Virus record (IMG/VR): IMGVR_UViG_3300030104_006429
Span: 1 to 40,737 of that record
DNA from: a virus
DNA: 40,737 bases
Direction: 5' to 3' (one strand)
Each line of letters begins with the position of its first letter. The first letter of the stretch is position 1. The position numbers and the translations under genes were made by a program. Positions 2,194 through 17,307 of the stretch are shown here, one piece after another. The notes under the pieces are model-generated. The model was not told the DNA's origin and ran no database searches. It saw nothing but the letters and a program-made list of their open reading frames with translations.

Positions 2194-2470
2194 GGCCTAT
2201 AGTGGCCTAGGGTATGTTTTTAAACTCAAGGTCTCTGAAACCCGCATGAATACTGGAAAGGCCTAGAGGCCTAGGGGGCCTAGGGGTATTTCTCTCACGC
2301 GAGAGAAAAAATAAACCCCGGTTAAATTGCTTAGCGTTACACGCATACGCGCGCGGGCGCGTGAACCCTAGGCCTCTGGGCCTTTTCCCCGGAAGCCAGA
2401 AAACACGGGGCCTGCAAAGGCCTAGGGGTACAACCGCGAACCCTAGGCCACCCCTAGGCCCCATGGGCCT
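2194..2470. repeat. GGCCTAGGGG repeat cluster, possible origin or control region
   Basis: This ~280-bp non-coding stretch lies between the helicase and Q-like genes. About eight copies of GGCCTAGGGG or near variants occur in it: forward at 2204, 2260 (weak), 2268, 2277 and 2419; inverted at 2366, 2441 and 2451. Truncated copies sit at both edges. It also contains a perfect 8-bp hairpin (TTTCTCTC/GAGAGAAA, 2289-2308), an AT-rich stretch at about 2305-2335 and an alternating GC block at 2348-2361. Iteron-like repeats near replication genes suggest an origin or a replication/partition protein binding region. The function is inferred, not shown. Confidence 0.6.
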
Positions 2471-4139
2471 ATTCACCCAGCTCACCAGTCAGCCCGGCCT
2501 GCTTCCGGAACTCAACAACGCAGTCTGTCAGCCACTCCTTCTGAGTCTTACTGTCAGGCTTCTTGTGGATAATAAAGAACGTCCCCTTACGATCCTTACG
2601 CATCGTCTTACCAGCTCCACCAGGGTCATCGTATTTAATCGAAGAGCGCCGCTTTAAACGCACCGCCATTGCGTTACTGAACTTCTCCCGGCTCATCGTT
2701 CGCTCATGACCTGCCCTACACCAGGCGTCATACACCAAAAACAAATCATCACTCAGGCAACTGAAGTACGGCGCATCCAAATTGCCAGCCGTCCACTCAC
2801 GATAGAAAATCTCCCAACTGGGCAAGCCGAACTCGATCAGCCGCTCTTTGGCTTTCGTCATCGGCGCTTCGGTGTATGGATCAAAATCACCCAGATCGAC
2901 CCGCAACAACCAATCATAAAAGGCCTCAATACCACCGTGCTTTAATTCATAACTAACGCGGGCTTTTAACTCAGGATCGATTTTTTTATCTGGCCAGATC
3001 ACCAGAAAACGACGGTCGGTAGTTTCAACCGGGAACGGCTGCAACTCATTAGAAAGGAACACTGCATTCATATGGTTGGCTTCTTCCCAACCGCTCATAA
3101 ACTTCTTTTCAATACGGGTTTTTTCGCCCGTAATCATCTGCTTAATGGTACCCATCTGGCTGTACTTATTAGAGCGGCTGAATATTTCTTCAAACACCCC
3201 ATACAACAAATTACTCTGCCAGTCGGTATATTGTGACTCCATCTGATGCTGACCCAGTGTCGCACCATAACGGCCATACACCTGACGCATCACACCATCG
3301 AAAAACAGAGACTTACCACTGCCCTGCATTTCAGAATGCATTAGCACCGCAGTACGCAGCTTCGCACCTACATACTGCAACGGATACGCCAGCCACCGCT
3401 GAATCCATATCCAGATCTCATCATCCTCATTGCATAACGACCACAACAGCGCCCGAATACCACTGCACGCATCGTCATTGCGCTCAGGCTGCAACGGCAA
3501 CCCCTGAAACATATTGATATACGTATCCGGGTCCACCTTCTGAGAAGGATCAAACACCACGTTCTTACGCAACACCATCTTGCGGTCAGGTGACGTATTC
3601 CAGAAATCAAACGCCCCCGGAATAATGCACCGCACCTGGTCCATCGTAATGACTTCACGTAGCTCACGATCCCAACATTCTTTACTAGGTTCCAGATACA
3701 CAAACCGATCAAGGGCACGGTCTAACCCCTGCACCCCCCTCTTTTTGGCGGCGAGCACCGCAGCAGAAATATCATCCTCATGCACCTCACGCTTACCAGC
3801 GGCATCAATCCACTCTTGCCCCACCTGCTTACCGACGATGCGCTTAAACGCAGTGACCTTCAGCTTGCACTGACGATGCGTATCCCACACATCACCAGTG
3901 GGAAAAATCAGAGCGAACCGCTTTAACGCATCATCCAGCGTAATCTCATCAGGCTTCGACACCTCAACATTATCCGGCTCACCAGCGTCAGCCGCAGCTT
4001 CACATTCCGCGTCGCCGAGCGAAGGGGGTACGGGGGAATCATCAACACGAAACGCCGTAGCAATCGCCGCATCAATCTGAGCTTTAACAGCATCCAGACC
4101 CTCAGCAACATGCAGATCATTAAAATCGACACCTGCCAT
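2469..4139 (-). CDS. SF3-type replicative helicase (DUF5906 family)
   Basis: The ATG at 4139 overlaps the primase stop (TGATG) and follows GGAGG; a TTG one codon earlier is not needed. The 556-residue product has Walker A GSGKS at about 273-277 and an acidic Walker B-like LLYGVFEEIF ending in E317-E318. Motif C-like FLSNE lies near 361-365 and an arginine-finger candidate in TTDRRFLV near 373-380. This matches phage/plasmid P4-type superfamily 3 helicases of the DUF5906 group. The N-terminal 60 residues are acidic and low in conserved features. It should unwind DNA at the phage origin with the primase encoded just upstream. Confidence 0.85.
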   Translation of the reverse strand: MAGVDFNDLHVAEGLDAVKAQIDAAIATAFRVDDSPVPPSLGDAECEAAADAGEPDNVEVSKPDEITLDDALKRFALIFPTGDVWDTHRQCKLKVTAFKRIVGKQVGQEWIDAAGKREVHEDDISAAVLAAKKRGVQGLDRALDRFVYLEPSKECWDRELREVITMDQVRCIIPGAFDFWNTSPDRKMVLRKNVVFDPSQKVDPDTYINMFQGLPLQPERNDDACSGIRALLWSLCNEDDEIWIWIQRWLAYPLQYVGAKLRTAVLMHSEMQGSGKSLFFDGVMRQVYGRYGATLGQHQMESQYTDWQSNLLYGVFEEIFSRSNKYSQMGTIKQMITGEKTRIEKKFMSGWEEANHMNAVFLSNELQPFPVETTDRRFLVIWPDKKIDPELKARVSYELKHGGIEAFYDWLLRVDLGDFDPYTEAPMTKAKERLIEFGLPSWEIFYREWTAGNLDAPYFSCLSDDLFLVYDAWCRAGHERTMSREKFSNAMAVRLKRRSSIKYDDPGGAGKTMRKDRKGTFFIIHKKPDSKTQKEWLTDCVVEFRKQAGLTGELGE

Positions 4140-5173
4140 CAAGCCACCTCCGCAGAAAACTGAGGCACCACAACATCTGCACCACAGGCCGCAGCAGCAC
4201 GCTGCGCGTACTTCAGGCCCGCGTTCTCTTCAGTGGCAGAATCATCATCAGCACAGATTAAAAAACTCGAACCGAACCCACGCTCAACAAACGTCGGTAA
4301 CACATTCGGAATATTCCCTGCATCAACAGCGACAACACAACAGTAACCCGTTGCCATATGAATACTGGCCGCCGTGGCATACCCCTCGGCAACACAAACC
4401 ACCGACCGATCGCCAGGTATCACATGAAAACAACCCGACTTGCGACCATGCCGGAAAAACGACTTCTTACCCGACGGGAAAATAATCTGCACCGACCATA
4501 ACGCCTGATCGCCATCTACCAACGGCACTAATAACGACCCACGCTTAATATTACGAACAGACAAATACTCAGGCTTGCCCGCCGCCGCGTAATCCGCGAA
4601 AAACTGAGAAATATCAGCCTCACCCGTCAACACCCGAAACGACTCTGTCTGATCATCAACAACCACCAGAACAGAACGCGGCACCAGATACACACCAAAC
4701 GCAGCAACCTGCTTCTGATTCAGATACGGACAATCGACCGGGCCATAATCACCAGCGCACACAGCATCAATCAGAGCACGACTGGCCTGAGCAACAATCA
4801 GCTGCATACGCTGCCGCCAGGCCCGCTCACGCTCGTCTTCCGCCTTGCGCTTGGCCTTTGCCTCTTCCGTTTTACGGCGATACTCAGCACGCTCCTGCTC
4901 AGACCACTGCTTATCAGCAGGCCGCCAACCGGCCTCTTTCGCCATCTTAATCAGCGTACCGATCCCCACACCCGACTTACTTAAGCTACGCCACACCGAA
5001 CGGCAATCGGCCGCCTTGTAGCTCTCAGCGGACTGAGACCAACTGTCGAACATATCAAACGCCGCATCACCAAACTCAGAGCGCAACGCCATACCCACCT
5101 GCAACCACTCTTCACGGCTATCAGACGACAGACACAGCAGCGCCTGCTCAGCATCTTGTAAAGTAAATTCCAT
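4139..5173 (-). CDS. DNA primase, PriCT-2 plus Toprim domains
   Basis: The ATG at 5173 has a GGTGGGG RBS and is preferred over the TTG at 5203. The 344-residue protein begins with a PriCT-2-like segment (about 5-82, including EEWLQVGMALRSEFG and FDSWSQSA). A charged helical linker follows (about 90-125). The C-terminal Toprim domain has the conserved Glu in CVAEGYATAAS (E263) and an acidic ICADDD motif (309-311). It resembles plasmid/phage TraC-type primases that prime DNA synthesis. It is translationally coupled to the helicase, giving a primase-helicase pair on two polypeptides. Confidence 0.85.
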   Translation of the reverse strand: MEFTLQDAEQALLCLSSDSREEWLQVGMALRSEFGDAAFDMFDSWSQSAESYKAADCRSVWRSLSKSGVGIGTLIKMAKEAGWRPADKQWSEQERAEYRRKTEEAKAKRKAEDERERAWRQRMQLIVAQASRALIDAVCAGDYGPVDCPYLNQKQVAAFGVYLVPRSVLVVVDDQTESFRVLTGEADISQFFADYAAAGKPEYLSVRNIKRGSLLVPLVDGDQALWSVQIIFPSGKKSFFRHGRKSGCFHVIPGDRSVVCVAEGYATAASIHMATGYCCVVAVDAGNIPNVLPTFVERGFGSSFLICADDDSATEENAGLKYAQRAAAACGADVVVPQFSAEVA

Positions 5174-5175
5174 GA

Positions 5176-5382
5176 TCAACCCCACCGATATAAACACGCG
5201 CAAAGAAATAAAATGCCAATTACGAAGCCGACTAGACGCACCCGATCACAGACAAAACCACGCCCATGTAGTTGGGGCCGCATCTCAGACGTCCGCAGGC
5301 CGCAACCGCAGGGTTGATATCCATTACCACGCGTACCGTCAAACCCATTGCGGCATGATCTGCACTTATAGACGCGCTTCAC
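5176..5382 (-). CDS. Small Cys-rich protein with C-terminal membrane helix
   Basis: A 68-residue product using a GTG start that overlaps the CII-like gene stop as GTGA; it ends two bases before the primase start. That tight packing is the main support for a real gene. CRSC near residues 8-11 and CGC near 26-28 could form a small zinc ribbon. A hydrophobic segment near the C-terminus (LVGFVIGILFLCACLY) suggests membrane anchoring. No family was recognised. Confidence 0.55.
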   Translation of the reverse strand: MKRVYKCRSCRNGFDGTRGNGYQPCGCGLRTSEMRPQLHGRGFVCDRVRLVGFVIGILFLCACLYRWG

Positions 5383-7097: not shown

Positions 7098-7733
7098 TCA
7101 ATAACCCGCACTCACCACCCCCTCACAAGCCATAAGCTTTGAATAAGCAGACTCAAACCCAGAGTACGAAACATTAAAGTCATATTGATTTTCATAAGGG
7201 AAAAATTTTGCTCGATACATAATCTCAGGCGAGCCCTTCGACAACATCTCGCGCACTATGCGCTGGGAATCATTAGCTGAGAACATTGCGACATTGGTCT
7301 GCATGTCAATTGCCCTGACCGCCGACAGACCGCCGACCTTCAATAAGGGATAATAGTCATACATAAAGGACTTAGGCACTTCTGAAAACGTCGGACTAGA
7401 ATACAGCCCAACAACGGGAGAGCCATTGATCATGATTACCGTCAACTGAACCCCCGCAAACGACTTATGAGGCAAGCCCTTGATGGACTTGCCAGAACGA
7501 ATCAGGCAAATCGCCTCACCAGTAATCGCGTCGTCCTTTTCATAGAAAGACCACCCATCAGAAGCCACCCGCTTATCTGACGACCGATACTCCCGAACCT
7601 CCGATCTCTCAGCATCATCGCACGGCTTGTCCTGGAATGACTTCTTCCCATCCGTACCAACGCAGACGTGATACTGCCCGCCAAGCGCGAGAGACGAGAA
7701 AAACCAAAGAAATAGCAAAGTAACCGAACGCAT
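7098..7733 (-). CDS. Secreted protein with DUF4124-like N-terminus
   Basis: A 211-residue protein with a clear signal peptide (MRSVTLLFLWFFSSLALGG), then YHVCVGTDGKKSFQDKPCDD. This tyrosine/Lys-Ser-phe-x-Asp-x-pro-Cys pattern is typical of DUF4124 periplasmic proteins. The remainder is beta-rich with no recognised domain. GGAGGG lies seven bases before the ATG. With the following small membrane protein it forms a two-gene minus-strand unit between the repressor and the early-left promoter, a common site for lysogenic conversion genes that alter the host envelope. That role is inferred from position only. Confidence 0.7.
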   Translation of the reverse strand: MRSVTLLFLWFFSSLALGGQYHVCVGTDGKKSFQDKPCDDAERSEVREYRSSDKRVASDGWSFYEKDDAITGEAICLIRSGKSIKGLPHKSFAGVQLTVIMINGSPVVGLYSSPTFSEVPKSFMYDYYPLLKVGGLSAVRAIDMQTNVAMFSANDSQRIVREMLSKGSPEIMYRAKFFPYENQYDFNVSYSGFESAYSKLMACEGVVSAGY

Positions 7734-7790
7734 ATAACACCCTCCATTGGCAGCATAATCAGTTTACCTGCCCCTCCGAAAACAGAAAAA

Positions 7791-7851
7791 CAACAATTAC
7801 TTGTTGACTTGCTAAGTTTTAGTTGTAAAGTAAAACAACTATTACTTGTTG
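7791..7851 (+). promoter_or_regulatory. Early-left promoter with clustered operators
   Basis: TTGACT (7804-7809), a 16-bp spacer and TAAAGT (7826-7831) form a plus-strand promoter for the 7863-14236 operon. Two 16-bp palindromic sites surround it: CAACAATTACTTGTTG at 7791-7806 (perfect 6-bp arms) and CAACTATTACTTGTTG at 7836-7851. A third dyad, GTTGT-8-ACAAC, lies at 7822-7839. The half-site TTTTAGTTGT (7817-7826) also occurs inverted in the switch dyad at 6204-6213, so the same repressor probably controls both. Confidence 0.75.
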
Positions 7852-7862
7852 AGGCAAACGTC

Positions 7863-8039
7863 ATGCAAACAGCAAAAGCCGACATCGTGATCCATCCATC
7901 CGTGTTCAACCGCCCAGACATGCTGGACGTACTGGACGCTATCGAAGCTGAAACCGGCGCTCGCATCGTGGCCAGCCACAACGGCCTGTTTGCAGAGATC
8001 AACCGGGCAGACGACTTCGACCCGGAGCCAGCAGCATGA
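7863..8039 (+). CDS. Small hypothetical protein, first gene of early-left operon
   Basis: The ATG at 7863 follows GAGG and gives a 58-residue acidic protein. An upstream start at 7809 lies inside the promoter and is rejected. It is the promoter-proximal gene of the early operon and overlaps the next start as ATGA. The sequence has one predicted helix (MLDVLDAIEAETG) and a short beta element (ARIVASHNG). No family was recognised. Confidence 0.7.
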   Translation: MQTAKADIVIHPSVFNRPDMLDVLDAIEAETGARIVASHNGLFAEINRADDFDPEPAA

Positions 8040-8323
8040 AAACCCCAGCCTACGAACAAGCACTGCAAGACATGCGCCTGCGCTTCTGGGGCTGTGCCCA
8101 CGCAATGCAGCGTGCAACCGAGCAGAACAAACCAGAACGCCAACTGGCCGAGCTGAAAACAGCAGAGTTCTTCTGGTCAGGCTTTAAAGCCCGCCGCCGC
8201 GATGCGCTGGCGCTGGCCCCAGACTCAGCACTGGATCACGTAGGCCAGGCCATAGACGAACTGCCAGCGCTCGAAAGCCCAAAAACCATGATCATTCGCG
8301 TAATGACAGGAGAAGCCGCATGA
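8036..8323 (+). CDS. Hypothetical early protein
   Basis: A 95-residue mostly helical protein (AYEQALQDMRLRFWGCAHAMQRA, FFWSGFKARRRDAL), coupled by ATGA overlaps to both neighbours. No domain was recognised. Codon use is GC-rich in third positions like the rest of the early operon. Confidence 0.7.
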   Translation: MKTPAYEQALQDMRLRFWGCAHAMQRATEQNKPERQLAELKTAEFFWSGFKARRRDALALAPDSALDHVGQAIDELPALESPKTMIIRVMTGEAA

Positions 8324-8667
8324 CACTCAGCATTGACCACCGAGACATAGCCGTGCAACTCAACACCACCGGCCCAGAGCTACTAAAGCGCCTGCGCACC
8401 GAAGGGATGCTGTACAGCGATGCGTTACGCCGCAACATGCCACGCCCCGAAGCCGCGCACCTGTTCGACACAGAACACCACAGCTACCAGGTCGGCAAAG
8501 TCGCCAGGCTGCACACCATGCTGACCGTACGGCCCGCCGGCATCACGTACCTGAGAGCGCTCTACAGCGGCGACACCAAAACCACAGAGCGGTTATCCGT
8601 CGCAGCCATTACACCGGCAGAGATCGCCCATCAGCGCATCGAAGAAATGAAGGCACAGCTTCAATAA
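8320..8667 (+). CDS. Possible KilAC-type antirepressor domain protein
   Basis: A 115-residue protein. LNTTGPELLKRLRTEGMLYSD near the N-terminus, then a middle containing HSYQVGKVARLHTMLTVRPAGITYLRALY, resembles the C-terminal KilA-C domain of phage antirepressors (winged-helix recognition of a short peptide or DNA). It lacks the N-terminal BRO/Rha part. If it is an antirepressor it could inactivate the CI-like protein, which appears unable to self-cleave. It is third gene of the early operon, coupled to its upstream neighbour. The family assignment is by pattern only. Confidence 0.5.
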   Translation: MTLSIDHRDIAVQLNTTGPELLKRLRTEGMLYSDALRRNMPRPEAAHLFDTEHHSYQVGKVARLHTMLTVRPAGITYLRALYSGDTKTTERLSVAAITPAEIAHQRIEEMKAQLQ

Positions 8668-10058: not shown

Positions 10059-10664
10059 ATGATCACAGCAACCACTCACGCAGACCTGATACAACAGGCC
10101 CGCCGCATCTTATCTGAGTGCGTCATCGTCGATACCGAAACCACCGGCTTTGAAGATAACGACACCATCATTGAACTGGCCGCCGTTGACGGTATGACCT
10201 GCGAAGTGGTCGAAGACGCTCTGACGCTGACCAAAAACGAAGTACGCCAGGAGATCACCGATCTGACCGGCATTACACAAGCGATGCTAGATGAAGACGG
10301 CTGCGACCCAGAGGACGTAATTAGCAACCTGTTTTTCAACCTCGAGAATGACGGCCTGAACATCGCAGCCTACAACCTCACGTTCGACAGCCGCATGATC
10401 CGCCAGACCATGGCCGCACGCGAAATGACCGCGGAAAACGAACCAGCCTACCGCCAGAGCAACTGCATCATGGAGCTGGCCAACCGCTACTTTGCTGAAT
10501 ACCTCGAATGGGATGCAGAACAGAGCAGGTTCAAGCGCCTTTCATTGGCGAAGTGCCTTGAAATTACCGGCATTGAACGAACCGGCAACGCCCACCGCGC
10601 ACTGAGCGACGCCATCGCCGCCCGCGATCTGCTGGTGTACATCGCAGAGGGTAACCGACCATGA
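10059..10664 (+). CDS. DnaQ-like 3'-5' exonuclease
   Basis: A 201-residue DEDDh exonuclease. ExoI motif DTETTG (D25, E27), ExoII in NLTFDSRMI (D110) and ExoIII in GNAHRALSDA (H179, D184) are all present, so the active site looks intact. Length equals a free-standing epsilon-type domain. It probably trims 3' ends during phage recombination or replication. AAGGACA precedes the ATG, and the stop overlaps the next start as ATGA. Confidence 0.9.
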   Translation: MITATTHADLIQQARRILSECVIVDTETTGFEDNDTIIELAAVDGMTCEVVEDALTLTKNEVRQEITDLTGITQAMLDEDGCDPEDVISNLFFNLENDGLNIAAYNLTFDSRMIRQTMAAREMTAENEPAYRQSNCIMELANRYFAEYLEWDAEQSRFKRLSLAKCLEITGIERTGNAHRALSDAIAARDLLVYIAEGNRP

Positions 10665-10867
10665 GCTGCACAGACATCCCCCTGAAAAACTACCGGCCAG
10701 GTGAGCAATTTATCGCGCGCCAACTGGCCCCCGATGAAATCGTGACACCCGGCTGCAAACGCCTGATCGAAGGCGACTTTATCGGTGTATTCACGTACGG
10801 AATCCCCGCGGCTGAATTCAGCAGCCCGGTCTATCAATTTGTTGAACTCGAAGGAGCCGCCGCATGA
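10661..10867 (+). CDS. Small hypothetical protein
   Basis: A 68-residue protein coupled to both neighbours through ATGA overlaps. No domain was recognised; the sequence is predicted to be mostly beta and loop (FIGVFTYGIPAAEF, VYQFVELEG). Confidence 0.65.
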   Translation: MSCTDIPLKNYRPGEQFIARQLAPDEIVTPGCKRLIEGDFIGVFTYGIPAAEFSSPVYQFVELEGAAA

Positions 10868-11145
10868 CCACCATGACGATCACCAACGAACACGCCGCCC
10901 GTCGCGAACAAATCGCCGCCGATACCGCCGCATTTATCGCCGCCGGAGGCCAGATCCAGCAACTGCCGTACGGCCCGGACGAATACAGCGAAACCGCCAC
11001 GGTAGACCTGAACGCCCTGAAAAAAGAAAAATCCCGAAAGCGCGGCCAGGCCGCCCCCGGCTGGAAAGGCCAGGCACCAATGCAGCTGAGCGTTAACGGG
11101 AATAAAAACAGAATGAAATCAGGCTACCAGGAGAACGCAGCATGA
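10864..11145 (+). CDS. Small hypothetical protein, possible DNA-binding
   Basis: A 93-residue protein. The N-terminal half (REQIAADTAAFIAAGGQIQQLPYGPDEY) has the feel of small phage regulatory proteins carrying an AAGGxIxxLP segment. The C-terminal half is strongly basic (LKKEKSRKRGQAAPGWKG), suggesting nucleic acid contact. No family is assigned with confidence. ATGA overlaps occur at both ends. Confidence 0.65.
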   Translation: MTTMTITNEHAARREQIAADTAAFIAAGGQIQQLPYGPDEYSETATVDLNALKKEKSRKRGQAAPGWKGQAPMQLSVNGNKNRMKSGYQENAA

Positions 11146-11210
11146 CGCCCAACTTCACCGGATTTCTAATCCTACTCATCATCGCCGCCATCATCGGCTG
11201 CGCAGGATAA
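11142..11210 (+). CDS. 22-residue membrane micropeptide
   Basis: ATG at 11142 overlaps the preceding stop as ATGA, with a GGAG RBS inside the preceding gene. The peptide starts MTPNFTGF, has a continuous hydrophobic core (LILLIIAAIIG) and ends CAG. The overlap, RBS and single perfect transmembrane segment support a real gene despite its size. The next gene follows after 12 bases. Confidence 0.55.
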   Translation: MTPNFTGFLILLIIAAIIGCAG

Positions 11211-11222
11211 CAGGAGCAGATC

Positions 11223-11486
11223 ATGAAAATACTATTGATACTGATCGGCTGCATACTCGCAGCGGTCGCCGCAGGCTTTGTTATCAGCGCCTACATAATC
11301 GCCCATCGGCTCGCTAACGGCCTGAATTACTGGAAACTGCCAGCAAATTCAGAGAGCAACGTCGTACCAATCAGAAAAGAGAAAACGCACTGCAATTATC
11401 CTGAGTGTTACTGCCCTCTGGACGCACCATACGATCCGGATGGCACCTGGTGCGCAATCGGTCTGCCAAAGGAGCACCGCTCATGA
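11223..11486 (+). CDS. Small membrane-anchored Cys-containing protein
   Basis: An 87-residue protein with an N-terminal transmembrane segment (ILLILIGCILAAVAAGFVISAYIIAHRL). A cytoplasmic or periplasmic tail contains CNYPECYCPLDAPYDPDGTWC, whose four cysteines might bind metal or form disulfides. CAGGAGC precedes the ATG. No family was recognised. It follows a second tiny membrane peptide, suggesting a pair. Confidence 0.65.
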   Translation: MKILLILIGCILAAVAAGFVISAYIIAHRLANGLNYWKLPANSESNVVPIRKEKTHCNYPECYCPLDAPYDPDGTWCAIGLPKEHRS

Positions 11487-11908: not shown

Positions 11909-12468
11909 CATTCGCACGACAGCTTGCCGTAGAAGAACTGGCTGAAAAACTCAGCATCAGTGCCGAAGGCCACAGCCAACGGAGCCTTGGCGAAGCATGC
12001 GCAGTTCGCGTTCTTCACAACATACACCTTGCCGAAGGCGAACCAACCGATGCCATGCACTGGAATCACGGCATGACCTACCTGGGCATAGGCCATGGCA
12101 AAATAGAAACTGAAGTTGAACGCGTAATCGAATCTGGCATGGCTACGGCAGACGATCTATTAAGCGTCTGCGATCGCATGGACGAAATGCTCAAAGCCTC
12201 TGAAAAACTGTACGCAGAGATTGAGCGGTTTATGCCATCGGCAACCATCTACACCGAGCACGACAAGGTTCTAAGCAGCTGGCGCGGAGGCTTTGGCAGC
12301 GCCTGTATTAGCCTATACGAAACCCATCTGACATTCCGCGGAGGCTGCAAAGCAACCACCGCCCGGATCAGAGCAGTCATAAAACGCCGCGACGCCATTG
12401 CAGCAACAGCCGCCAAAGACGCAGCAGAAAAATCCGGCATGCACGAACAGATCGGGATGGGTGTCTGA
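11905..12468 (+). CDS. Hypothetical early protein
   Basis: A 187-residue mostly helical protein with the start fixed by CCAGGAGA and an ATGA overlap. The N-terminus (RQLAVEELAEKLSI) resembles the extra N-terminal helix of the DUF551-like neighbour (KLAEKLGIDHAKLPREKLAE). This suggests a shared interaction motif or partial duplication. A central DRMDEMLKASEKLYAEIERFM helix is predicted. No family was recognised. Confidence 0.65.
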   Translation: MTFARQLAVEELAEKLSISAEGHSQRSLGEACAVRVLHNIHLAEGEPTDAMHWNHGMTYLGIGHGKIETEVERVIESGMATADDLLSVCDRMDEMLKASEKLYAEIERFMPSATIYTEHDKVLSSWRGGFGSACISLYETHLTFRGGCKATTARIRAVIKRRDAIAATAAKDAAEKSGMHEQIGMGV

Positions 12469-13358
12469 TGAACATCATTGCCAACAGCTACTTCAGCGGC
12501 GCTGGCTTGCTCGATATCGGCCTGCAAAACGCCGGCATCCATATCGGCCAAGCATACGAGATCGATAAAGACGCTTGCGCCACCTATCGGAAAAACCACA
12601 ACCACCAATTAGTTGAGGGCGACATCAGCCATCAGCTAGTTCTGGAGCAAGACAGCTGCGATCTGATGGCGTTTACCTACCCGTGCACCAAGTACAGCCG
12701 GATAGCCGATATTCACGACACTCGCACTGGCGATGAACTGTTCTTGCACGCCCTTCGCCACCTTGCTATTGCACGCCCCGAAGCGTACCTGGTTGAGAAT
12801 GTACCGGGCATGCGAGCGTTCCCGATAGTCATGGAAGCCATGACCAGAATGCCAGACTACTACGTACAAGTATTCTGTCCAGTAAAAGCAGAGACATGGC
12901 TACCGCAGCGCCGCCATCGACTGATCATTATCGGCACACGCAAGCACTTCAAAATTCGCCCACCCGAGAACACCCGAGCGATATCCCTGACCGACATTCT
13001 GGAAAAAAACCCAGATGTAACCCTCCCGTCAGCGATAAAGAATCGAATGACAGGAGCATACCGCGACTTGCCAATTATTAGTGACCCCGAGCGTGGAGAC
13101 ATCGCACCTACATGCGTTGCACATTACGCCAAAGATAAAAGCACTCGACTGGTAAAAGACAAGCGCTTTCCAATGGGAGTACGCCCCTACAGCGTACGAG
13201 AATACGCCCGACTCCAAGGCATACCAGACAGCTTCACATTCCCCGGATCTAACACCGCCGCATACCGACAGATCGGAAACGGCGTACCAGTACAAATGGC
13301 CGAGTGGGCTGGCCGAGAACTAACAAGATATTTCAAGCAGCAGAGGCAAGCAGCATGA
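12468..13358 (+). CDS. C5 cytosine DNA methyltransferase (orphan)
   Basis: A 296-residue protein with ordered DNMT motifs: I FSGAGLLDIG (9-18), II acidic E31, IV YPC with catalytic C73, VI VENV (109-112), VIII QRRHRL (147-152) and X GNGVP near the C-terminus. The variable target-recognition region is short. The usual PPC of motif IV is replaced by YPC, as seen in some divergent phage enzymes. It transfers methyl from SAM to cytosine C5. No restriction enzyme is nearby, so protection of phage DNA from host restriction is the likely use. The ATG overlaps the preceding stop as TGATG. Confidence 0.92.
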   Translation: MNIIANSYFSGAGLLDIGLQNAGIHIGQAYEIDKDACATYRKNHNHQLVEGDISHQLVLEQDSCDLMAFTYPCTKYSRIADIHDTRTGDELFLHALRHLAIARPEAYLVENVPGMRAFPIVMEAMTRMPDYYVQVFCPVKAETWLPQRRHRLIIIGTRKHFKIRPPENTRAISLTDILEKNPDVTLPSAIKNRMTGAYRDLPIISDPERGDIAPTCVAHYAKDKSTRLVKDKRFPMGVRPYSVREYARLQGIPDSFTFPGSNTAAYRQIGNGVPVQMAEWAGRELTRYFKQQRQAA

Positions 13359-13855
13359 AAAAATCAACCCGCGCCCGACAGGGCAAAAACGCCCAACGAC
13401 TGCGTGACGACATCCGCCGTAACACGTTTTACATGCACGGCACCATGATGGCCAGCCAGGGTGCTGATGTCGGCAACCCCAAACACACCATCACCAGAGA
13501 TGATGCCGTGGCGATCCTCAACCGCCGCAACACCTGGGCAATTATGATCGTTGTGTTTCTGGATAACGGCATTGAGCCATTCGCAAAGACGGATCACCGC
13601 ACCATCACCGAACACAAAAGCCGCAGCGACATCAACGCACAGATCGATCAGCTGCACTGGGATTTTGTCGGCGAGCAAAACCTCAACCACGTCTGCAGCT
13701 CAGGCTTCTTTCTAGTGCCAGATCACACCGTTGACCTACAGCAGTCAGAGCGCGACGCGATCCGGCTGTTTTCATTGCACAAACCATGGGACCGCGACCA
13801 CACCGAAGCGGCAACCATGATCAGACAACTGGAACGCATCACGGAGGCGGCGTGA
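13355..13855 (+). CDS. Hypothetical early protein
   Basis: The ATG at 13355 overlaps the methyltransferase stop (ATGA) and gives 166 residues. The protein has a basic N-terminus (KKSTRARQGKNAQRLRDDIRRN), a central WAIMIVVFLDNGIEPF segment and an acidic-basic C-terminal helix. No domain was recognised. Coupling to the methyltransferase could indicate a shared role, but nothing in the sequence proves it. Confidence 0.65.
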   Translation: MKKSTRARQGKNAQRLRDDIRRNTFYMHGTMMASQGADVGNPKHTITRDDAVAILNRRNTWAIMIVVFLDNGIEPFAKTDHRTITEHKSRSDINAQIDQLHWDFVGEQNLNHVCSSGFFLVPDHTVDLQQSERDAIRLFSLHKPWDRDHTEAATMIRQLERITEAA

Positions 13856-14049
13856 CCGAGAACCTGACCCGTACCGAGCTCATTGCAGAAATAAGACGAG
13901 TTGCCAGCGAAATGGAAACACTAGGCACCGCGATGGACTACTACGGCGGATTTAACAGCACTATTTCTGACCACGGCAAAGAAATGATCGGCGCAGCCCA
14001 AATAGCTCGCGGCTGGGCCACCGGAATGGAGGAACAGGAAAATGATTAA
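13852..14049 (+). CDS. Small helical protein with GTG start
   Basis: GTG at 13852 overlaps the previous stop as GTGA and follows a near-perfect GGAGG, giving a 65-residue helical protein (TRTELIAEIRRVASEMETLGTAM). No family was recognised. Confidence 0.65.
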   Translation: MTENLTRTELIAEIRRVASEMETLGTAMDYYGGFNSTISDHGKEMIGAAQIARGWATGMEEQEND

Positions 14050-14236
14050 AGCAACCCAACACGGATATGAACTACCCGACGGCTGCACCATCGCCATCGT
14101 AAAAGACGGCCAGGTGATCGAATCCGGCACGGAGTTAGCGCTGGCACTATTCGAAGCCGCCGGCGATGTGTATCTGGATGAAATGGACCGATTTATAGAC
14201 CGCAACCAGCTGAAACAGCCAGCGGCGACGGTTTAA
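14042..14236 (+). CDS. Small hypothetical protein, last native early gene
   Basis: A 64-residue protein overlapping its upstream neighbour by eight bases, with GGAGG upstream. Its stop codon TAA forms part of the first attC-like R'' box (GTTTAAC, 14231-14237), so it is the junction between the native early operon and the cassette array. Base usage matches the upstream operon, not the cassettes. Confidence 0.65.
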   Translation: MIKATQHGYELPDGCTIAIVKDGQVIESGTELALALFEAAGDVYLDEMDRFIDRNQLKQPAATV

Positions 14237-14278
14237 CCCCCACAAGCAGGCGAGGCGCGCTGCCTTTGATTGTTATGT
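14231..14278 (+). repeat. attC-like site 1 (upstream border)
   Basis: R'' GTTTAAC at 14231-14237 and R' GTTATGT at 14272-14278. The inner arms GCAGGCG and CGCTGC pair with one unpaired G, resembling the extrahelical base of attC. At 48 bp it is at the short end for attC. Confidence 0.65.
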
Positions 14279-14299
14279 GCAACTAACGGAGTGAGATTG

Positions 14300-14554
14300 A
14301 TGGAAACGAAAACAGTAATGATGCCCAGAGAATTGACAGCGGAGAATGGAGCCAAGGCGTTGCTCTTAGGGGAGTTTAGCGTTGGTGACTTTATCGAGTG
14401 CGGACGGTGTGATGGTGGAGATGCATCATCCGATGATGAATACGAAGAGTGTGAATTTTGCGAAGGCCAAGGCGGCCACCACGTAAACTTCGCTGTCGAC
14501 TGGCCTACGATCAAAGCGATTTACGCTAAAGCCGTCGAACACTTAGGCACATAA
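14300..14554 (+). CDS. Cassette 1: DnaJ-type zinc-finger-like protein
   Basis: The ATG at 14300 follows GGAG and gives 84 residues. Two CxxC pairs (CGRCDGG and CEFCEGQGG) separated by an acidic stretch resemble a DnaJ/anti-TRAP-type zinc-binding module. The rest is short helices. It is the first cassette gene; its TAA is embedded in the following ACATAAC box. The function is unknown; a small zinc-binding adaptor or regulator is possible. Confidence 0.65.
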   Translation: METKTVMMPRELTAENGAKALLLGEFSVGDFIECGRCDGGDASSDDEYEECEFCEGQGGHHVNFAVDWPTIKAIYAKAVEHLGT

Positions 14555-14597
14555 CCACGCTATTCAGCGGTTTATCCGCTGCAATGCATTGTTATAT
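14549..14597 (+). repeat. attC-like site 2
   Basis: R'' ACATAAC 14549-14555 and R' GTTATAT 14591-14597. The inner arms GCTATT and AATGC pair with an unpaired T, followed by the CAGCGG/CCGCTG stem with loop TTTAT. Spacers of three bases separate the boxes on both sides. This is the clearest attC-like fold of the six. Confidence 0.75.
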
Positions 14598-14609
14598 CTG
14601 GAGGATTTT

Positions 14610-14786
14610 ATGAATATTTTAGATGCGCACGTTGTTGAAGTGATTGGTGAGCCTGAGTTTAAGTATGGCAAGTGGTTTGTCAGGGTAAAAGTGGACTGCT
14701 ACGGCTGTGTTAGTGAAACACAGCCGATGTTCAGCACAAAAGAAGCTGCCGAATCGCTAAAGGTTGGAGACGTGGTTCAGATATAA
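14610..14786 (+). CDS. Cassette 2: small hypothetical protein
   Basis: ATG at 14610 with a strong TGGAGG directly after the R' box; 58 residues. The product is beta-rich (HVVEVIGEPEFKYGKWFVRVKV), with single CYGC and a final LKVGDVVQI that looks like an SH3/OB-type small barrel end. No family was recognised. TAA forms part of ATATAAC. Confidence 0.65.
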   Translation: MNILDAHVVEVIGEPEFKYGKWFVRVKVDCYGCVSETQPMFSTKEAAESLKVGDVVQI

Positions 14787-14840
14787 CCCAGAGATTTACT
14801 GCCGAGCGCAGCGATGTCTGACAAAAGTAAATTGTTATTT
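14781..14840 (+). repeat. attC-like site 3
   Basis: R'' ATATAAC 14781-14787 and R' GTTATTT 14834-14840. A 7-bp inverted pair ATTTACT/AGTAAAT lies inside, with a small CTGC/GCAG stem at the centre. 60 bp. Confidence 0.65.
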
Positions 14841-14852
14841 TGCAGGTTAAAT

Positions 14853-15020
14853 ATGAAAAAAGGCAAATGGGTGAAGCTATTTAAACGCGAAGGTAAGCGA
14901 CTGGGAATTAAGCAGCGGACGTTGCCAGTTTGGGCGGAGCAGTGCTGGCTTGAGTCTATTGGTGCTGATGTTGACGGAGCTTGCGCCGCTCGGAGCTTGT
15001 TCTATTGGATGTCAAAATAA
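14853..15020 (+). CDS. Cassette 3: small basic hypothetical protein
   Basis: The ATG at 14853 (AGG upstream) is preferred over one at 14814, which lies inside the attC-like site. The 55-residue product is basic at the N-terminus (MKKGKWVKLFKREGKRLGIK) with a Trp/Cys-containing C-terminal half. No family was recognised. Its TAA lies in the following AAATAAC box. Confidence 0.6.
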   Translation: MKKGKWVKLFKREGKRLGIKQRTLPVWAEQCWLESIGADVDGACAARSLFYWMSK

Positions 15021-15068
15021 CCCGGCGTTAATGGGCGCGCAGCGTCCAAATTTCACGGCTTGTTATTT
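15015..15068 (+). repeat. attC-like site 4
   Basis: R'' AAATAAC 15015-15021 and R' GTTATTT 15062-15068. Central stem GGGCGC/GCGTCC with a 3-nt loop. Its left 23 bp are identical to those of site 5. Confidence 0.7.
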
Positions 15069-15085
15069 CACCGATTGGAGCGTGT

Positions 15086-15262
15086 ATGTTTGAGAGCTTT
15101 TTGATTGTGCTGGCATTTGCTTTTGTCTGCTTTATGGCTGGCTATGGAATGGTTGACTTGTTATTCCGCTGGCTGTTTGGAATCAGAATTACGATAAACG
15201 ATCAGAACGGTCATCCGCGAAAGTACAGACTGAAGAATGGAATTCTTAGAAGGTTGAAATAA
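15086..15262 (+). CDS. Cassette 4: 58-residue membrane protein
   Basis: ATG at 15086 follows GGAG and the frame stays open to TAA at 15262. The product begins with a long hydrophobic segment (LIVLAFAFVCFMAGYGM), then DLLFRWLFG and a basic tail (HPRKYRLKNGILRRLK), so it should sit in the inner membrane with a cytoplasmic basic end. No family was recognised. It is complete and bounded by attC-like sites 4 and 5. Confidence 0.6.
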   Translation: MFESFLIVLAFAFVCFMAGYGMVDLLFRWLFGIRITINDQNGHPRKYRLKNGILRRLK

Positions 15263-15317
15263 CCCGGCGTTAATGGGCGAGAGCCTGCGAACGTCACAAT
15301 TAAACGCATTGTTATAA
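15257..15317 (+). repeat. attC-like site 5
   Basis: R'' AAATAAC 15257-15263 and R' GTTATAA 15311-15317. The inner arms GCGTTAAT and ATTAAACGC pair with one unpaired base. The left 23 bp match site 4 exactly. 61 bp. Confidence 0.75.
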
Positions 15318-15333
15318 ATCTAGGAGTTTATTT

Positions 15334-15591
15334 ATGGAGAAGGTCTCACGAAAAGAAGATATGTCTCCCCGCGGTCAGTTAAGGGTTTTTACAGACGATG
15401 ATGGCGACATTCATGTGACTGTATTTTCTGATGATGGGAGCGGCAGGATTGAAACGATGGCGTCAGTAGAATTCTGCACGAGTGTTACAGGTGGCGGGCG
15501 CAGCCCGGCAACACGAAAAGCTCTGATCGAGCTTGCTAGGGCCATGAGGGAGGACAATGAGAGTCACCCTGAGCGGGCTGGTGATTTATAA
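15334..15591 (+). CDS. Cassette 5: small hypothetical protein
   Basis: ATG at 15334 with TAGGAG seven bases upstream; 85 residues. A predicted beta hairpin (GQLRVFTDDDGDIHVTVFSDDG) is followed by a Gly-rich turn (TGGGRSPATRKAL) and a C-terminal helix (LIELARAMREDNESHP). No family was recognised. The TAA is part of TTATAAC. Confidence 0.65.
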   Translation: MEKVSRKEDMSPRGQLRVFTDDDGDIHVTVFSDDGSGRIETMASVEFCTSVTGGGRSPATRKALIELARAMREDNESHPERAGDL

Positions 15592-15643
15592 CAGAGAGGA
15601 CGCGCGTCGAGGTACGAGATCGCCGCGCTCCGAGGTGTTATTT
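15586..15643 (+). repeat. attC-like site 6 (downstream border)
   Basis: R'' TTATAAC 15586-15592 and R' GTTATTT 15637-15643. The inner GGACGCG pairs with CGCGCTCC with one unpaired C. It ends three bases before the stop codon of the convergent serine recombinase. Confidence 0.65.
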
Positions 15644-15645
15644 TT

Positions 15646-17307
15646 TCAGAAATCAGCGGCACTGACATATCCTTTGCCCAGCCGATCAATCCGCAGCAAC
15701 CGCACCGCACCAGAGCGGAACTTCAGCCGTATATCAATGACGCCTTTGCCGGGCAACAACCTCTGAGCCAAACGCTCTGCCACCCTCGCCCTCGCCCCGG
15801 TAAAACCCTCAGCAGTAAAACCCTTTCCGTACACATCGATTCGTTCAAATGTCGCCATAAACAACTGCCGGGCCTTCATCCGCGCATCTTTATCCAGCGT
15901 CATCACTGCGTCTGTCAGCGTCTGCCATTCATCCAGCAATCCACCGACCACCGCGCCCGCGTACACTTTTAAATCATTCTCAGCCGCCGCCAGGGCATCA
16001 CGAGCAGCAGCCTGATCTTTCTCAAGTTCGCGCATTTTACGGATCAGCACCAACGGCACTTCATCCGTTTCCAGCAACGCCGCTGCCAATTTATCTAATT
16101 TCACCGCGATATCATCGAGCGCCACCCGCCGATCTGCCACCGTCGCGGCCAACTTCGCGCGGGTATCGTCCTGCTCAGTAAATTCAGCAACGCCCAATTC
16201 AGACCGGCAATACGTCAGCAATGCACGCTCGACCACCGCCAGCGACACCCCGCCGCCAACAGGGCAGCGCCCACCGCCATCCAGACCATCTGCGCATTGC
16301 AATCGCCGGTGTCCATCAGCCAGAGATCCATCAGCCCGCGCACGGTTCGCGTAATTCACACCCTGCATCGATGCACCACAGTAACCGCAAAAGCAGATAC
16401 CAACGCCAGTAAAAATGCCGGGAATGCCTGCACCAGGTGCACGCGGCCGCGAGCGCCCAGCCGCCTGAAGCCGCGCATAATCACTGTCAGAAATTGCCGC
16501 CGGATAGTAATCATCCAACGTGTATTCAACCCCAGCAACCCGCAGCACCTTAGCGCCAATCATCATCGGGTTTTTAAATATGCGATACAGATTCTTCCCA
16601 GAGACAGGACCATTGCTGATCCTCATGCCCTCAGAGTTCAACCGCTTAGCAATAGCCGTCCCGCCCTCACCAGACAAGTACAGCTTTACCGCCAACCTCA
16701 ATGCCTCAACGCGTTCAGGGATGAATTCATACAGCGGCGGCACATCAGATCCCGTCTCACGCACCCAGCCCGGCGGCTTACCGTTACGGATATGAGTACG
16801 CCTCTTTTCGGATATCCAGTCTTCACACGCAATCCGGATCGCCGCATTAACACGACTGCTTTTCGTCTCGCTTTCCTCATGCGCACGAATCATCACAAGC
16901 ACCGAGTAAACCAGATCCATCGGGTTCGCCCTCAGCGACTCACGATCATAGCGCTTACCGTCTGACGCAGTGACGACAGCAATACCCGCATTAATGATCT
17001 GATACAGAATGGCCTGAGCCTCAATCGGCTCAGCACGAGACAGACGATCAAGCGCTTCAATAATCAACGTTGAGCCTGCCGGCACCTTGCCAGCCTCAAC
17101 GGCCTGCAGAAACACGCCCAGCGCACCTTTCTTAATATGCGCCTGGTGATAGGCCGACAGCCCCTCATCTTTCATGCTCAGAGAGGTATCCAGCTGCAGA
17201 CCATTCTCAGCAGCGTAACGCTCAGCGTACTCAGACTGACGATCAGACGACGAGCCCTGCGCCTGTTCAGGTGTAGAGAATCGGATATAGCTGTATAATC
17301 GCGCCAT
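15646..17307 (-). CDS. int: Large serine recombinase (phage integrase)
   Basis: A 553-residue protein. The N-terminal resolvase domain holds catalytic Ser11 (YIRFSTPEQ) and the DRLSR arginine motif (87-91). The recombinase domain follows (about 180-290). A zinc-ribbon with C305/C307/C310 and C338/C348 and a long coiled coil (about 385-460) are typical of large serine integrases. It joins short attP and attB sites without supercoiling. The start is the ATG at 17307, 23 bases from the divergent rimO start, so attP lies directly upstream. It is convergent with the cassette array. It should integrate the phage into rimO; a recombination directionality factor was not recognised. Confidence 0.93.
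   Translation of the reverse strand: MARLYSYIRFSTPEQAQGSSSDRQSEYAERYAAENGLQLDTSLSMKDEGLSAYHQAHIKKGALGVFLQAVEAGKVPAGSTLIIEALDRLSRAEPIEAQAILYQIINAGIAVVTASDGKRYDRESLRANPMDLVYSVLVMIRAHEESETKSSRVNAAIRIACEDWISEKRRTHIRNGKPPGWVRETGSDVPPLYEFIPERVEALRLAVKLYLSGEGGTAIAKRLNSEGMRISNGPVSGKNLYRIFKNPMMIGAKVLRVAGVEYTLDDYYPAAISDSDYARLQAAGRSRPRAPGAGIPGIFTGVGICFCGYCGASMQGVNYANRARADGSLADGHRRLQCADGLDGGGRCPVGGGVSLAVVERALLTYCRSELGVAEFTEQDDTRAKLAATVADRRVALDDIAVKLDKLAAALLETDEVPLVLIRKMRELEKDQAAARDALAAAENDLKVYAGAVVGGLLDEWQTLTDAVMTLDKDARMKARQLFMATFERIDVYGKGFTAEGFTGARARVAERLAQRLLPGKGVIDIRLKFRSGAVRLLRIDRLGKGYVSAADF

Follow-up and report, generated by a model that had tools for sequence, protein, structure and literature searches.

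The virus record IMGVR_UViG_3300030104_006429 of IMG/VR, analysed here over its whole length of 40,737 bases (hereafter, the window), is that of a tailed phage, and at 14231-15643 it holds an integron-type gene-cassette array, that is, six attC-like sites enclosing five small plus-strand open reading frames (ORFs). We consider it likely that this is an array without an integron integrase gene (intI), carried by a temperate phage, whose cassette genes are inverted relative to their attC sites, are read by the phage's own operon, and are exchanged with the help of an integron integrase (IntI) acting in trans. That the six-site, five-cassette integron-type array is real is confirmed by the analyses described below.

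The TAAC boxes of the array lie at 14234, 14552, 14784, 15018, 15260 and 15589 and the GTTAT boxes at 14272, 14591, 14834, 15062, 15311 and 15637, giving sites of about 49-62 nt. The ATG starts, read off the sequence, fall 12-21 bases 3' of GTTATnn, and the stop codon of all five ORFs is the TAA of the next box. An earlier reading of this DNA from its letters alone (the sequence-only reading) had described the boxes, ORFs and start spacing correctly. The sites and cassettes are listed here with scores from a covariance model and an orientation classifier, both presented below:

14231-14279, minus strand: site 1, a weak one that supplies the attC body of unit 1 (8.7 bits and E 8.2 in the held-out model, i.e., background; classifier antisense, -1.88)
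14237-14554, plus strand: inverted cassette 1, with gene 14300-14554 after its attC body (84 aa; by eye, two CxxC pairs); own-end pairing 9 bp
14549-14598, minus strand: site 2, attC (held-out model E 1.6e-5; fold z -4.3 and -4.0 on the two strands vs. shuffles)
14555-14786, plus strand: inverted cassette 2, with gene 14610-14786 after its attC body (58 aa, phrog_8110 family, PHROG E 7e-16); own-end pairing 10 bp
14781-14841, minus strand: site 3, attC (held-out model E 1.2e-7)
14787-15020, plus strand: inverted cassette 3, with gene 14853-15020 after its attC body (55 aa), the gene being present in G001 as well; own-end pairing 9 bp
15015-15069, minus strand: site 4, attC (held-out model E 3.7e-6)
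15021-15262, plus strand: inverted cassette 4, with gene 15086-15262 after its attC body (58 aa, N-terminal half hydrophobic by eye); own-end pairing 9 bp
15257-15318, minus strand: site 5, attC (held-out model E 2.9e-11)
15263-15591, plus strand: inverted cassette 5, with gene 15334-15591 after its attC body (85 aa); own-end pairing 10 bp
15585-15643, plus strand: site 6, terminal attC-like site oriented opposite to sites 1-5 (classifier +1.15; held-out model on the plus strand only, at background, 8.4 bits, E 9.8)

Integron character of the array

The strongest sign of an integron-type array is that the two ends of each cassette pair with one another over 9, 10, 9, 9 and 10 bp, as compared to 4-8 bp for the other pairings among the same boxes. 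The true assignment of ends (sum 47) ranks first of 120 permutations, with the runner-up at 43, and when the window was shuffled 200 times by mononucleotide, no shuffle contained a chain of at least three such cassettes. For most gene cassettes, pairing of the two ends over 9-11 nt has been described (PMC2727003; articles cited here by PMC number are drawn on for part of their text). A covariance model of our own (i.e., not that of IntegronFinder), built on 17 sites from other phages with the window held out, found four of the six window sites (sites 2-5, E 2.9e-11 to 1.6e-5). The proposal of an integron-type cassette array inside a phage is thus upheld by own-end pairing at all five cassettes and by covariance at sites 2-5, with sites 1 and 6 falling outside the latter support. 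Model R1 was also run on annotated integrons of two phages and on an Alteromonas plasmid, which proved weak controls, with six matches, all at E 0.26 or worse, all within the two phages and all on the gene strand; Rfam searches gave nothing useful.

The sites have R'' and R' boxes flanking an imperfect inverted repeat with L boxes, as attC sites do, and the R boxes are conserved in the model alignment while the L arms change on both sides. For the L helix drawn by hand in that alignment, 21 cells changed on both sides, compared to 7.8 in shuffles and 1-6 in slid controls. Folding against shuffles gave z below -3 at two of six sites on the minus strand (sites 2 and 6) and at one of six on the plus strand (site 2, with three others near z -2). 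Both strands fold, and folding by itself picks no strand. Finally, a search of the window record with the IntI profile TIGR02249 gave no match, in line with the sequence-only reading. With at least two attC sites (four of them at E 2e-5 or better) and no intI adjoining, the array belongs with the clusters of attC sites lacking integrases (CALINs).

Orientation of the cassette genes

Relatives were sought in IMG/VR from the methyltransferase gene upstream of the array, the attC core pattern, and the terminase. Attention centers on twelve further records with attC-like sites (G001 to G010, G411 and G421), ten of which carry chains of at least two end-paired cassettes. The two others are G008, with three scattered sites, and G004, with a few sites beside an intI gene. 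Chained arrays are thus found in 11 records including the window, where G007 repeats G006 and is counted once with it among distinct sites; by chance, two-cassette chains arise in 2 of 45 shuffled loci.

In annotated integrons of one Vibrio and one Shewanella phage, the gene strand reads TAACAA...GTTA at all 23 sites listed, and it is the minus strand of window sites 2-5 that comes nearer to this pattern. The sequence-only reading had taken the gene strand to be the attC top strand; sites 1-5 point the opposite way. A first score based on the site ends called 58 of 60 distinct phage sites antisense to their genes; we rejected it as sole proof of orientation because it misjudges two chromosomal integrons (loci L246 and L256), and a classifier was therefore trained on 100 sites of 20 integrons, with orientation set only by the position of intI. 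When each locus was left out in turn, the classifier was right for 99 of 100 sites and for 20/20 loci. Applied to the phages, it likewise placed 58/60 sites in antisense to the genes. Window sites 1-5 are among them (-1.6 to -3.3), and the exceptions are site 6, called sense (+1.15), and a tie in G008 (23295, +0.04). The motif GGA[CT] near L'' shows the same asymmetry, occurring on the canonical strand of 57 and the reverse strand of 4 of the 100 training sites and, among the 60 phage sites, on the antisense strand of 25 and the sense strand of 2. The reading of the sites in gene sense was accordingly rejected, on the classifier result and on the junction sequences described below.

The genes tell a similar story. 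Among 38 phage cassettes from ten genomes, 29 are inverted, none is normal and 9 are undecided (i.e., without a clearly longer ORF on one strand), the strand of the site being taken here from the first end score and the records G004, G007 and G008 being left out (G004 and G008 for having no chain of two). By comparison, the 84 cassettes of 16 chromosomal integron loci, with the strand set from intI, comprise 67 normal, 5 inverted and 12 undecided ones; from the 20 loci fetched for the chromosomal and classifier work, four were omitted, namely L245, L247 and L254, which had at most one chained cassette, and L261, whose array is distant from intI. Since sites 1-5 are antisense, the cut is predicted at gene-sense TAA^C and the unit would consist of the preceding attC body and the following gene.

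Site 6, which shares 85% identity over 55 bases with the last site of G002, is possibly the fixed recipient end of the array. By eye, the terminal sites of the window (15585-15643), G002, G003, G411 and G421 seem to form their own class, with GTGTTA and a GC-rich hairpin; the end score leans to gene sense at four of six terminal sites (window, G002, G003 and G411) and to antisense at both G421 sites.

Cassette differences and integron integrases in related phages

The window forms a genus-level group with G001, G002, G411 and G421 (terminase 74-98%). Among group members whose contigs extend past the homologue of the window gene at 13304-13855, the window and these four carry arrays, as opposed to G409 (see below). 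The array stands before that homologue in G002 and G421, and after it in the window, G001 and G411. Array content is almost wholly different within the group, and one window cassette recurs in a new context. For instance, many proteins of G001 are 90-100% identical to those of the window, yet only one of its six cassettes is common to both. Array content thus differs between related phages, as the sequence-only reading would have it; in this comparison, the cassettes of G411 and G421 were matched by sequence with the genes of window cassettes 1, 2, 3 and 5, that of cassette 4 (15086-15262, 58 aa) being below the length limit. Sites occur at more than one place in G003, G005, G006, G009 and G421.

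Several further searches were negative. The covariance model was silent in all 23 methyltransferase-relative loci given to it outside the fetched array records, including the locus of G004 (L006), whose sites are of another type than those modelled. In G409, the model finds no site and none is visible by eye 3' of the homologue of the window's 64-aa gene (48% identical to 14042-14236); the same contig (L157, 1-1300) runs by eye from the operon end into bacterial dicarboxylate-type symporter-like sequence, probably a prophage-host junction. No relative of cassette 2 was confirmed in IMG/VR, the distant ones being mostly in Aeromonas phages, and PH101 showed no credible array by eye within 50 of its 132 kb. 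Two side observations concern contig structure. In G009 (L069), two 97% identical tyrosine integrases (375 aa; 7482-8609 and 10333-11460) bracket the cassette array, each terminating at the TAAC of a different attC body, and in G421 (L148), genes for tRNA-Pro, Arg and His (25-307) lie at the contig end beside the second array locus, likely the host side of an attachment site.

Shared cassettes indicate where the units are joined. The window and G001 carry an identical cassette 3 gene; the identity stops at TAACCC, with different attC bodies beyond, and the preceding bodies are of one subtype, differing at 4 of about 50 positions. In a separate pair of phages, L178 and L207, an identical gene ends on the intI leader (at an inferred attI) in L178 and on another attC in L207, and the preceding bodies differ at 10/99 positions, with a mosaic look. 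The right-hand cut at gene-sense TAA^C is thus sharp in both shared cassettes, as inversion would predict and normal orientation would not, and the bodies have had a separate history. The mosaicism of the bodies is not explained by inversion; our guess is gene conversion between similar bodies.

An integrase is present in G004, which shares with the window a methyltransferase (73%) and a primase. It encodes a full-length IntI (408 bits vs. a cut-off of 265) with residues conserved in alignment, and the gene lies just downstream of cassette genes that point toward it; intI and cassettes have the phage primase to one side and, to the other, tail genes together with a serine recombinase. The junction between the last cassette and the intI leader is attI-like, the attI being assigned from the junction sequence only, and the three G004 sites given to the classifier were all antisense. 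With intI above the curated cut-off beside this putative attI and attC sites, G004 qualifies as a complete phage integron. Its IntI is at most 51% identical to the IntI of 398 sampled genomes, among the matches listed. Among the array records, the window and nine of the ten tested showed no IntI, apart from a weak match in G003.

When IMG/VR was scanned with a profile, 215 IntI relatives emerged and 80 were retained; about 45 of the latter (L163-L208) match phage IntI at 34-53% identity, several only partly. Phage-encoded IntI may be commoner than one would gather from published counts. As the sequence-only reading held, phage-borne arrays are rare; they are already published, with 17 CALINs, 3 complete integrons and one In0 reported in 10,705 genomes (Qi et al. 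2023, PMC9892861). Fifteen IntI loci had at least two chained cassettes, and the decidable genes run only toward intI in six (L165, L174, L178, L185, L192 and L207), only away from it in three (L167, L196 and L200) and both ways in three (L166, L171 and L195), with L179-L181 undecided. Phage replication, head or packaging genes are present in L207 and L192, and a tail gene in L171. Because two-cassette chains can be chance and L207 has only a fragmentary intI (residues 150-320), the cleanest case among the loci with genes toward intI is L178.

Alternatively, the array could be an ordinary CALIN in normal orientation, each gene travelling with its own following attC, that was captured from a host chromosomal integron by the host IntI and is carried as payload, as the sequence-only reading had it. 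We regard this as unlikely, even if the gene-strand TAACCC...GTTA superficially resembles some chromosomal attCs (e.g., L256) and the published phage CALIN TJE1 seems to be of this kind, two sites looking gene-sense by eye against the consensus. The 58/60 antisense sites, the different bodies that follow the cassette 3 gene in two phages, and the genes pointing toward intI in G004, L178 and L207 (with the fragmentary intI noted above) all argue against it. Capture from a host integron also finds no backing in one pattern scan of 84,980 species genomes, which gave a single match (Pseudovibrio), without a covariance-model match, and hence no chromosome with the window attC type, and G004 and some other phages carry intI of their own. 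A covariance search of the 398 genomes was uninformative, 13 candidates per genome being scored among the matches listed.

Genomic setting, proposed mechanism and relation to known systems

The array extends from the last gene of the early operon to the 3' end of the phage integrase gene. Genes for terminase, portal, major head, tape measure and tail occupy one side of the window, and primase genes the other. Its neighbors are:

12468-13358, plus strand: gene for a C5-cytosine DNA methyltransferase, in the early operon and 5' of the array (Pfam DNA_methylase E 1e-39; PHROG DNA methyltransferase)
14042-14236, plus strand: last resident early-operon gene, 64 aa, whose TAA stop is the box of site 1
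15646-17307, minus strand: phage large serine integrase, convergent with the array (Pfam Resolvase and Recombinase domains; phrog_95 integrase E 1e-67)

The large serine integrase suggests that the window phage is temperate; a search for serine-integrase relatives confirmed none, and the array DNA had no match among known phages. A methyltransferase gene is also upstream of the array in G002, G003 and G004, and the C5 type precedes arrays in different phages (L207, 1291-2220; window, 12468-13358). The window primase consists of two overlapping minus-strand ORFs (2469-4142 and 4139-5203) matching two halves of one PHROG family; G004 likewise has two separate primase ORFs, and G002 adjacent primase matches.

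As for cargo, 16 PHROG families were matched by a set of 39 cassette proteins (one protein per family, at most 15 proteins, since window cassette 2 accounts for two), a DNA methyltransferase being one of them. Further families recognized by Pfam are Dam, P22 NinX, Lar (restriction alleviation) and an Elf1-like zinc ribbon, and PADLOC finds orphan methyltransferases and, marginally, one match to a Cas12a model. The cargo probably comprises small accessory early functions such as anti-restriction. No excess of promoters was found over 13300-15800.

Terminator-like matches number seven, against a shuffle mean of 3.5 (sd 1.9), which, together with the stable hairpins at sites 2 and 6 and the mosaic-looking bodies, might suggest hairpin-bearing intergenic repeats of a terminator-like or REP-like (repetitive extragenic palindromic) kind that never recombine site-specifically, the gene differences being due to ordinary mosaicism. 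This is very improbable, given that own-end pairing is cassette-specific, that R boxes are conserved while L arms change on both sides, that junctions are sharp at the boxes and G004 has IntI, and that only two of the seven matches, at 14248-14266, fall in a site. Least credible of all is a host chromosomal integron misjoined or misbinned with a prophage: some IMG/VR contigs do enter host DNA (the G421 tRNA genes and, by eye, the G409 transporter gene), but phage genes lie on both sides of the window array, the left flank recurs at 91% in G001, which comes from a different metagenome (its contig ending soon after the array), and other records hold the same kind of array.

Returning to inverted cassettes read by a phage operon, several results weigh against this interpretation. 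On the side of site identity, the held-out model leaves window sites 1 and 6 at background, and two of five covariation measures do not clearly exceed shuffles, both-side pair changes being reached in 59/500 shuffles and further pair types in 254/500. On that of orientation, the first score was wrong for L246 and L256, only the later classifier handling both, and yet it supplies the site strand behind the 29 of 29 decidable inverted genes; site 6 is oriented opposite to sites 1-5, and an ORF of at least 45 codons stops at the box at only 33 of the 60 sites of the wider set. The preceding bodies differ while the genes are identical, so body and gene did not simply travel together. Finally, the covariance model does not detect the G004 attCs, the serine recombinase of G004 is only distantly related to that of the window, and no IntI is known to act on window-type sites.

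Under the mechanism that we favor, the mobile unit would be an attC body followed by a gene. The integron integrase would cut at antisense G^TTAT, i.e., gene-sense TAA^C, the box that holds all five window stop codons. The attI side would be the 3' end, adjoining the phage integrase, and incoming cassettes would enter there, becoming the last genes of the operon. Transcription of the phage early operon would run through the array, whose genes end next to the phage integrase; such read-through would make an integron promoter unnecessary, and genes inverted relative to normal integrons could be read by the phage's own operon. The integrase may be provided in trans by the host or another phage, with some phages encoding their own. 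In a broader form, to which we give even chances, phages would run their own cassette economy, with an inverted-gene class of integrons, cassettes appended downstream in the operon without an integron promoter, a pool largely separate from the bacterial one, and an IntI that is phage-encoded or borrowed.

Integron theory ties gene orientation to the choice of attC strand so that captured genes are read from the integron promoter. That all decidable cassettes of this phage lineage face the other way suggests that the orientation rule follows the source of transcription and not recombination itself. If this is true, phages would be users, and not just carriers, of integron recombination, the swapping of tiny accessory genes between closely related phages would become easier to explain, and there would be a pool of cassettes whose orientation a bacteria-oriented search might get wrong.

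CALINs and integrons of phages have both been published, and the inverted arrays are apparently a new variant. We found no report of arrays with all genes inverted, judged on titles and the starts of abstracts among the matches listed, where subscription journals are poorly covered, so this is no proof of absence. The islands (MGIs) of cryoconite phages (PMC7468147) are similarly variable gene regions, and 'Integron gene cassette' (5) is tabulated with the annotations of island genes; in the passages covered, no attC array is described. Like the phages described in PMC9892861, those studied here include attC arrays without intI and, in some cases, complete integrons; compared to the CALINs published there, chained arrays of the window type recur, in the 11 records noted above. 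In the integrons of the phages Shewanella M16-3 and Vibrio p16, the genes run with the attC (18 of 19 decidable), and TJE1 is alike by eye, whereas window-type arrays are inverted. The atypical integrons of Treponema (PMC3607928) have intI and cassette genes on one strand, as do G004, L178 and L207, but with intI transcribed toward attI and the cassettes beyond, as opposed to the order of cassettes, inferred attI and intI in these three. With sedentary chromosomal integrons, the window array shares attC boxes, own-end pairing (9-11 nt in the former), small genes and array turnover. The genes of chromosomal integrons, however, normally run away from attI and intI and depend on the integron promoter (PMC3607928, PMC11551772), while those of the window face the attI side, where transcription from the phage operon could reach them.

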